From an uncultured Paracoccaceae bacterium (GTDB taxonomy: Bacteria > Pseudomonadota > Alphaproteobacteria > Rhodobacterales > Rhodobacteraceae): a stretch of 35,740 bases of DNA. The notes beneath the pieces are model-generated. The model was not told where the DNA came from. It did no database searches and was given only the letters and a program-made list of their open reading frames with translations. The DNA lies in contig CAIYZT010000254.1 of assembly GCA_903930735.1 (NCBI GenBank), positions 1 through 35,740 of the forward strand, given 5' to 3'. Below, piece after piece: positions 21,638 through 22,185 of this stretch (position 1 is the stretch's first letter; the number at the start of each line of letters is the position of its first letter). Position numbers and translations under genes: made by a program.

Positions 21638-21647
21638 GGGGGGGGGG
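21638..21647. repeat. G10 homopolymer tract
   Basis: Ten consecutive G (C10 on the minus strand) sit between the last CcsR-like hairpin and the BenE-type start, about 60 bases before its ATG on the minus strand. It is the longest homopolymer I noticed in the window. It could be slippage-prone and could also be a sequencing or assembly weak spot. Confidence 0.85.
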
Positions 21648-21650
21648 AGC

Positions 21651-21680
21651 GGCGGCACCGGGGAGGAGTAAGGTGCCGCC
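21651..21680 (-). ncRNA. CcsR-like hairpin 4 (distal)
   Basis: Minus strand: GGCGGCACC (21680-21672) pairs perfectly over 9 bp with GGTGCCGCC (21659-21651). The 12-base loop TTACTCCTCCCC exposes the motif. It is the best-formed hairpin of the array. A C10 run, not a T-run, follows. Confidence 0.75.
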
Positions 21681-21704
21681 GTCACATTTCTTGACCAGAC
21701 CATT

Positions 21705-21710
21705 GGGAGG
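21705..21710 (-). ncRNA. CcsR-like motif 3 (weak structure)
   Basis: TTTTCCTCCCAATG on the minus strand carries the motif with a T in place of the first C. The flanks pair only weakly (GGC with GTC), so this unit may be degenerate. The span given is the motif core. Confidence 0.45.
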
Positions 21711-21721
21711 AAAAGCCGACC

Positions 21722-21757
21722 AAAAAAACCCTTTACTTCAGAGCCTTGGCTTTGAAG
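21722..21757 (-). terminator. Hairpin with T7 inside the CcsR-like array
   Basis: Minus strand: CTTCA-A-AGCC (21757-21748) pairs with GGCT-C-TGAAG (21745-21736), one mismatch, followed by TAAAGGG and T7 (21728-21722). The gap between stem and T-run makes it an imperfect terminator. It would separate units 1-2 from units 3-4 or act as a partial terminator or processing point. Confidence 0.5.
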
Positions 21758-21762
21758 CAGGT

Positions 21763-21795
21763 CCTGCGCCCTCAGGGAGGAGAAAAGGCCGCAGG
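21763..21795 (-). ncRNA. CcsR-like hairpin 2
   Basis: Minus strand: CCTGCG (21795-21790) pairs with CGCAGG (21768-21763). The enclosed 21 bases contain CTCCTCCC with a further GG/CC pair at the base of the loop. Confidence 0.65.
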
Positions 21796-21828
21796 CTCAG
21801 CGATCCATAACTGGACGCCGGATATTCA

Positions 21829-21854
21829 CGCCCCAAACTTGGGAGGAGAAGGCG
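21829..21854 (-). ncRNA. CcsR-like hairpin 1 (proximal)
   Basis: Minus strand: CGCC (21854-21851) pairs with GGCG (21832-21829) around a loop containing CTCCTCCC. It starts only about 13 bases after the DUF1127 stop codon, so it must be part of that transcript. An alternative inner pairing CCAA/TTGG competes with the motif. Confidence 0.55.
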
Positions 21855-21866
21855 CGAATTCGAAAA

Positions 21867-22082
21867 TTAGCGATCGATTGACTTGCCCTTGGCGACGTCT
21901 TCGATATTGCCGCGCATCAGGCCCATATCGGCCAGATCACGGTCGCTCAGCGCGTTCAAATCGCGCAGGGTTTGACGATAAATCGCCCGGCGCTCGCTGG
22001 CCGCGCGGATCAGAGTGACCATTGCAAAAGCACGGTCCAAAAGCGTCACGCGCACAGCGCTGGTCGAGTTTACATAAGCCAT
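21867..22082 (-). CDS. Small DUF1127 protein, CcaF1-like
   Basis: A 71-residue basic protein, MAYVNSTSAVRVTLLDRAFA, ending in a DUF1127 domain: YRQTLRDLNALSDRDLADMG then LMRGNIEDVAKGKSIDR. The Arg-rich DUF1127 C-terminus binds RNA in characterised members. In Rhodobacter sphaeroides the orthologous gene in front of the CcsR RNAs encodes CcaF1, an RNA-binding protein affecting maturation of CcsR and UpsM and RNA turnover. ATG 22082 has GAGG at good spacing; a GTG four codons upstream is possible. It is the first gene of the CcsR-like unit and sits behind a candidate RpoH promoter. Confidence 0.85.
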   Translation of the reverse strand: MAYVNSTSAVRVTLLDRAFAMVTLIRAASERRAIYRQTLRDLNALSDRDLADMGLMRGNIEDVAKGKSIDR

Positions 22083-22157
22083 TTTGAGCCTCACATCTTT
22101 CTTCTCTGTCAGGGTCTTCAGAGGAACATCCCTCTGTTAGCGCTGGCGTTGAATGAG

Positions 22158-22185
22158 AGATGGGGCAATTGCTGCATCTGCACAA
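22158..22185 (-). promoter_or_regulatory. Candidate RpoH (heat-shock sigma factor) promoter for DUF1127/CcsR
   Basis: Minus strand: TTGTGC (22185-22180), a 14-base spacer, then CCCCATCT (22165-22158). The -10 matches the sigma32-class consensus CCCCATNT, and spacing is within the known 13-17 range; the -35 is partial. A start near 22150 gives a 5' UTR of about 68 bases. RpoHI/RpoHII control is known for the equivalent locus in Rhodobacter sphaeroides. Confidence 0.55.

Follow-up and report, generated by a model that had tools for sequence, protein, structure and literature searches.

A shortened CIN1-type (ccaF1-CcsR-like) locus with predicted PhaR elements at its RpoH-type promoter in an uncultured Paracoccaceae bacterium

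The stretch of DNA analysed here (hereafter the window; 35,740 nucleotides of contig CAIYZT010000254.1) carries on its minus strand a 71-amino acid DUF1127 gene followed by an array of anti-Shine-Dalgarno (aSD) hairpins, which is very likely a shortened CIN1-type (ccaF1-CcsR-like) locus, a kind already known. The same high probability is given to the best explanation taken whole, that is, a CIN1-type array together with a predicted PhaR input at the promoter. Within its family the window locus is nothing unusual. What is new is a set of conserved PhaR-like promoter elements, which suggests a connection of the stress array with carbon storage as well.

In the mechanism we propose, a single RpoH-type promoter (predicted start 22149) would give a transcript specifying the DUF1127 protein and ending in a 3' untranslated hairpin array which exposes UCCUCCC. 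By homology, RNase E, aided by the DUF1127 protein, would release the hairpins, and their loops would pair with the purine-rich ribosome-binding sites of target mRNAs; a role of the window locus in the stress response is likewise inferred from homology. PhaR would bind two predicted promoter elements and repress when polyhydroxybutyrate (PHB) is absent, while PHB granules would draw PhaR off and release the promoter, the output of the array then following stress as well as carbon storage. This PhaR part, with its two bound elements and its double response, we judge moderately probable. If it is true, carbon-storage status would set the output of an aSD array whose known members in R. sphaeroides affect C1 metabolism and pyruvate dehydrogenase, and a widespread, poorly understood stress RNA array would gain carbon storage as a second input.

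The DUF1127 gene and its aSD motifs

The gene (22082-21867, minus strand) specifies a protein of 71 amino acids which matches PF06568 (E=2.9e-8), and so has the short DUF1127 gene by which a CIN1 / ccaF1-CcsR locus is recognised. Its C-terminus departs from the EAAYGK-like end conserved in the family. Related DUF1127 genes were found in 172 of the 198 genomes covered by the family search. Four aSD motifs lie less than 200 bases downstream of the gene on the same strand, spanning 188 nt. All are TCCTCCC preceded by C or T: CTCCTCCC is present at 21848-21841 (motif 1), 21782-21775 (motif 2) and 21668-21661 (motif 4), and motif 3 is TTCCTCCC (21712-21705). The first-pass annotation, made from the letters of the sequence, had described a small DUF1127 gene followed by CU-rich motifs on the same strand, and both the gene and the four motifs were confirmed.

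The genome to which the window belongs (3.65 Mb, in 441 contigs) contains 82 YTCCTCCC sites, four of which sit in the array. Because such sites are so few the cluster is not due to chance: 0.002 would be expected on one strand of 188 nt, and a Poisson estimate puts the genome-wide chance of the cluster at about 3e-8. The number of motifs in the window as a whole (six) is at the level of shuffled sequence, only their clustering being unusual. The motifs are unpaired with a mean probability of 0.85, compared with 0.56 in flank-shuffled controls, none of 100 of which reached as high a value; two of the four motifs lie in a hairpin loop, which was equalled by five of the 100 controls. Folding of the entire array gave a z-score of -3.31. 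A search against Rfam at gathering thresholds over the window returned tRNA only, with no family over the array. As in other CIN1 loci, a same-strand array of aSD hairpins stands directly downstream of the gene (four motifs in 188 nt, one of them degenerate).

According to passages of PMC10253847, ccaF1-CcsR1-4 of R. sphaeroides (RSP_6037) consists of a 71-amino acid DUF1127 gene with the CcsR RNAs in its 3' region and an RpoH promoter. The window locus (CIN1) resembles it in the length of the gene, the downstream aSD hairpins and the predicted RpoH-type promoter. The two differ in that a 3' terminator is described for ccaF1-CcsR1-4 whereas a simple scan found none in the window, and in the C-termini of their proteins. 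G051, probably a genome of R. sphaeroides, has the same promoter block, with operator-like site 2 (see below) perfect and site 1 at one mismatch, and 12 CTCCTCCC motifs, compared with three plus one TTCCTCCC in the window. That the window holds a unit of the CcaF1-CcsR type, as had been suggested at first pass, is supported by synteny with a sister genome, by arrays in other genera, by the hairpin statistics and by the spacing and conservation of the promoter.

There is also a likeness to the cuckoo RNA family (alpha-r14, NfeR1, SmelA075/SmelA099), described in parts of PMC3927594 and PMC7143759 as hairpins with variable stems and aSD loops; passages of the former describe RNAs of rhizobia in which three or four loops carry CCUCCUCCC. 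The window too has several variable-stem hairpins with an aSD loop motif. The cuckoo RNAs, however, are trans-encoded sRNAs of rhizobia, whereas the window hairpins trail a DUF1127 gene, and loops of the window type read UCUCCUCCC, ACUCCUCCC or UUUCCUCCC, the first C of the cuckoo CCUCCUCCC being missing.

The RpoH-type promoter and its operator-like sites

The predicted promoter (22185-22158, minus strand) comprises a TTG at 22185-22183 (-36 to -34) and CCCCATCT at 22165-22158, in which A-12 falls at 22161 and T-9 at 22158. Twenty-two positions separate the G of TTG (22183) from the A at 22161, the -34/-12 register, and passages of PMC3441632 name G-34, A-12 and T-9 among the positions of R. 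sphaeroides RpoHI/RpoHII promoters. This register sets the predicted transcription start at 22149, adjoining the 22150 estimated at first pass. The block is conserved in the sister genome and in a set of 47 named loci (titles naming Rhodobacteraceae or Rhodobacterales genera, or merely a bacterial bin), with TATGTT or TATATT replacing CCCCATGTT in a few loci. Sequence and spacing fit the RpoHI/RpoHII type, the use of these sigma factors being a prediction. For the candidate RpoH promoter of the first-pass annotation, with its plausible -10 element, CCCCATCT is present, conserved and at the published spacing.

That annotation was silent on a conserved operator-like block which lies over and upstream of the promoter. 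Site 1, CTGCATAGCGG (22213-22203, minus strand; about -64 to -54), lies upstream of the -35 element and has one mismatch to CTGCNNNGCAG, which is given for R. sphaeroides PhaR in passages of PMC12542648. Expressed as CTGC-N3-GCAG it occurs exactly in 32 of 48 loci (the 47 named loci and the window, anywhere in 220 nt) and with at most one mismatch, as in the window, in 43. Among 300 shuffled upstream regions two had an exact match and 37 a match with at most one mismatch, so that a one-mismatch match is weak by itself. Site 2, TTGTGCAGATGCAGCA (22185-22170, minus strand; about -36 to -21), overlaps the -35 element and the spacer. It has no mismatch to the family consensus TTGTGCA-N2-YGCAGCA, while the best of 300 shuffled upstream regions had three; these shuffles were of single bases, not dinucleotides. 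In the window the starts of the two sites are 30 bp apart. The most conserved part of the block reads AGCCATGC-N3-TGCTGCATGGCAGCATTG and, about 16 bases later, ATTGTGCA-N2-YGCAGCA.

Site 2 resembles the SMa1961 and mmgR sites of Sinorhizobium meliloti, from promoters which, in the portions of the literature used here, are shifted by PhaR in gels; it has one extra central base. The same partial sources describe MmgR as an sRNA repressed by PhaR through TTGTGCA-N-YGCAGCA, with an aSD sequence in its first loop; it is, however, a single RNA of another family, without a DUF1127 gene, and its PhaR site is one base shorter than site 2. Both S. meliloti phasin (phaP) promoters, as presented in passages of PMC12542648, have two PhaR palindromes flanking the -35 element; in the window one site is upstream of that element and one overlaps it. 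Both phasin palindromes are canonical, whereas the second palindrome of the CIN1 promoters is imperfect and has an additional base.

The genome of the window has one PhaR gene, directly behind a gene which is called phasin-like because of this position before phaR. Pfam supports the latter only weakly (E 0.83, which does not reach the cut-off), and a PF09361 search of this genome reported no phasin. Its promoter contains two CTGC-N3-GCAG sites, and TGCTGCANNGCAGCA occurs exactly there and nowhere else in the genome. Nine of the 30 phasin loci inspected (L124, L125 and L129-L135, the subset serving as positive control) have CTGC-N3-4-GCAG upstream, paired in five at 27-30 bp. The other 21, which include the best-scoring PF09361 matches, are without a fitting site: in 19 the stretch examined contained no CTGC-N3-4-GCAG, and in two it held stray ones only.

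An 18-base site-1 pattern (at most two mismatches, 61 genomes) is not exclusive to this locus. In 16 of the 30 pattern loci fetched a DUF1127 gene follows within 700 bp, namely 4/4 of those with no mismatch, 6/8 with one and 6/18 with two. By-eye comparison of coordinates places at least five unfetched matches close to phasin or PhaR matches (G040:C13, G034:C1, G043:C11, G013:C1, G006:C22).

Two similar sequences elsewhere in the genome of the window deserve mention. TTTGCACCTGCAGCA, which is close to site 2, lies upstream of a second DUF1127 gene on C307 (L001, match 763-864), behind which no TCCTCCC array was seen by eye; further DUF1127 genes may share PhaR-type control through site 2. TGCGGCAATGCAGCA is found at position 1037 of L098 (C298), 109 bases before a match to HpcH/HpaI aldolase/citrate lyase, making that gene a possible further PhaR target.

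Presence of PhaR and fate of the promoter block

PhaR is missing in 7 of the 198 genomes, and in 9 of 395 genomes of at least 95% completeness. Five of these nine, from three genera, nonetheless have an array of 2 to 10 CTCCTCCC behind a DUF1127 gene. Among array loci site 2 tracks PhaR, as would be expected of a PhaR regulon: at up to two mismatches it is present in 40 of 41 loci of PhaR-positive genomes (39 at up to one mismatch, being 23/23 and 16/18 in the two samples described below) and in none of the five from PhaR-negative genomes. In the latter the best matches have 4 to 6 mismatches, as many as in shuffled sequence. Fisher's test returned 4e-6 when genomes were counted and 3e-4 when genera were; these values ignore kinship, and the PhaR-negatives behind them amount to three genera. 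In G150, G427, G003 and G369 (all PhaR-negative) the TTGTG of the -35 element is kept and GCAGCA is lost; in G338 TTGTG is lost too. The one PhaR-positive exception, G206, has site 2 at chance level.

The comparison used the best DUF1127 match per genome plus a few extra loci, and a loose motif count (any base before TCCTCCC). By the strict count of CTCCTCCC, G206 has none, G201 one and the five PhaR-negative loci 2 to 10. Twenty-three PhaR-positive loci were chosen by likeness to the window protein, and 25 PhaR-positive genomes were sampled in the order in which they were listed. At least two motifs were required, which removed L022, L024, L034, L035, G210, G220, G199, G208, G219, G212, the second G221 locus and the PhaR-negative G269 and G296. 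Also omitted were the incomplete G098, G166 and G033 and the PhaR-negative G136, which has a match without an array; G090 and G218 gave no gene match. G098 and G166 are without a detected PhaR and keep the sites, which fits a PhaR gene in the missing part of each genome and is not counted as evidence. G199 has site 2 at a DUF1127 locus without an array.

From this pattern we lean, though only slightly, towards the reading that CIN1/CcsR-type loci are PhaR targets across much of the family, with two sites gating the RpoH promoter, and that where PhaR was lost in evolution the sites decayed and the array stayed. A link between PhaR and the array was not found in the open-access literature searched, and term searches in the text of PMC12542648 gave no mention of DUF1127.

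A reading of the block as promoter and nothing more was rejected, since it extends as far as about -75 and genomes lacking PhaR have lost the GCAGCA portion. PhaR sites do not explain all of it either. Around site 1 (22225-22200 and the corresponding positions of relatives) there is an ATGC-N6/7-GCAT dyad whose positions are each 96-100% conserved over 66 distinct rows, the profile being limited to rows having site 2. The left arm of the dyad is degenerate in the window. Because it is equally conserved, and persists in four PhaR-negative genomes, the dyad probably serves another factor or has some further role. One may go further and take the entire block for the site of another factor, or for an unusually extended RpoH promoter, rather than a PhaR operator. 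This is possible, if somewhat doubtful: the dyad and the extra base in site 2, compared with proven PhaR sites, would be in keeping with it, but the selective loss of GCAGCA from PhaR-negative genomes, four of five of which keep TTGTG, would not, and neither would the occurrence of the same class of motif at some phasin promoters or the strong resemblance of site 2 to those of SMa1961 and mmgR.

Hairpins of the array and their counterparts in relatives

Motif 1 is carried by a hairpin at 21859-21824 (all on the minus strand), which is moderate (z -2.11) with partial pairing inside the loop; the sister genome keeps its stem and loop. It is followed by a folded spacer hairpin without an aSD loop (21820-21798). 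This is possibly an eroded aSD hairpin which has lost its loop, judging from by-eye comparison with the sister, or possibly an insertion in the window, going by where the aligner places it. The hairpin of motif 2 (21795-21763) is strong in energy (-18 kcal/mol, motif unpaired 0.99), yet its z-score is only -1.54. An extra hairpin (21758-21735) and, six bases on, a run of seven T (21728-21722) precede the degenerate element with motif 3 (21726-21690), which has no significant hairpin of its own (z 0.07). The hairpin of motif 4 (21683-21648), with 12 pairs, is very strong (z -4.65), and its stem and loop are near-identical in the sister.

Stems of unequal length and shifts of loop register among the copies led to the use of an arm-swap test in place of covariance models; motif 1 was left out as being too near the gene. 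The arms of motifs 2 and 4 were superior to 20 of 20 swaps, whereas for motif 3 15 of 20 swaps paired as well as its own arms or better. At least two of the four motifs had been placed at first pass in strong hairpin loops, and one copy, motif 3, had been taken as degenerate; the array has two strong hairpins, one moderate and one degenerate, the last having arms no better than swapped ones.

The sister, a genome of the same genus, has the identical gene order mrp/ApbC - DUF1127 - array - BenE. Of the eight TCCTCCC motifs in its array, seven lie in hairpin loops. In the alignment hairpins 1 and 4 of the window are almost unchanged, and three hairpins which follow hairpin 4 in the sister are absent. 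Immediately after hairpin 4 the window has a run of ten C (21640-21650), in place of which the sister shows seven C, followed by its three further aSD hairpins; this end of the array could represent a real loss or an assembly problem or collapse (the genome being in 441 contigs).

Among 29 family loci with flanks, CTCCTCCC occurs downstream at least once in 26 and at least twice in 25 (once in one locus, and in three not at all). Forty-six of the 47 named loci, seven of which are shared with the former set, have arrays of 2 to 16 motifs, the one exception being truncated by a contig end. In the arrays of relatives 413 of 458 motifs have at least six of their eight bases in a hairpin loop, and the mean unpaired probability is 0.97 at the motifs and 0.43 across whole arrays; the sister is entered twice (L041, L048) in the 458-motif counts. 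Over 419 hairpins, own arms exceeded the median of 20 swaps in 96% and all 20 in 45%. That own arms outdo swapped ones bears on the covariation in relatives raised by the first-pass annotation, in general terms and not pair by pair.

The array is among the shortest, which raises the question of whether the locus is a decaying relic, from which the protein is perhaps still made and whose array no longer acts as a regulatory RNA. It has four motifs, where the sister has eight and most of the named relatives 5-14; motif 3 lacks a supported hairpin and the C-terminus of the protein is altered. We hold this to be unlikely. The exposure of the motifs exceeds that of flank-shuffled controls, both sister genomes retain hairpins 1 and 4, the promoter and site 2 are intact, and short arrays are found elsewhere (L049 with three motifs, L071 and G338 with two each).

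Lying as they do in a 3' untranslated region, the hairpins might instead merely stabilise or shape the 3' end of the DUF1127 mRNA, with no action in trans. This is quite improbable given that the loop sequence is kept while the stems vary (346 distinct 5' arms among the 419 hairpins), and that the CcsR RNAs of R. sphaeroides have flhR mRNA as a target, as reported in passages of PMC8307010.

The first-pass idea that two transcripts arise from the array because the hairpin with the T7 run ends transcription in its middle is highly improbable and was rejected: the hairpin exists, and the stretch 21765-21722 folds with z -2.19 and outer pairs extending into the T run, but six bases separate this run from the inner stem, the terminator scan of the window does not call it, the sister has no T run at the aligned position, and one of the folds has the run paired to the far arm of the motif 3 hairpin. 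A simple scan, which can miss terminators, gave no convincing 3' terminator for the array either; the lone weak terminator-like site (21584-21572), over the start of BenE, is no more than shuffles yield. A Rho-independent 3' terminator was not treated as defining for a CIN1 locus.

A different arrangement of motifs is seen at L039, where the DUF1127 gene is followed by six pairs of aSD motifs, each made up of a short and a long one. Over the 700 nt covered the pairs repeat every 113 nt (116 at the first step), a regular spacing which suggests a recent tandem duplication.
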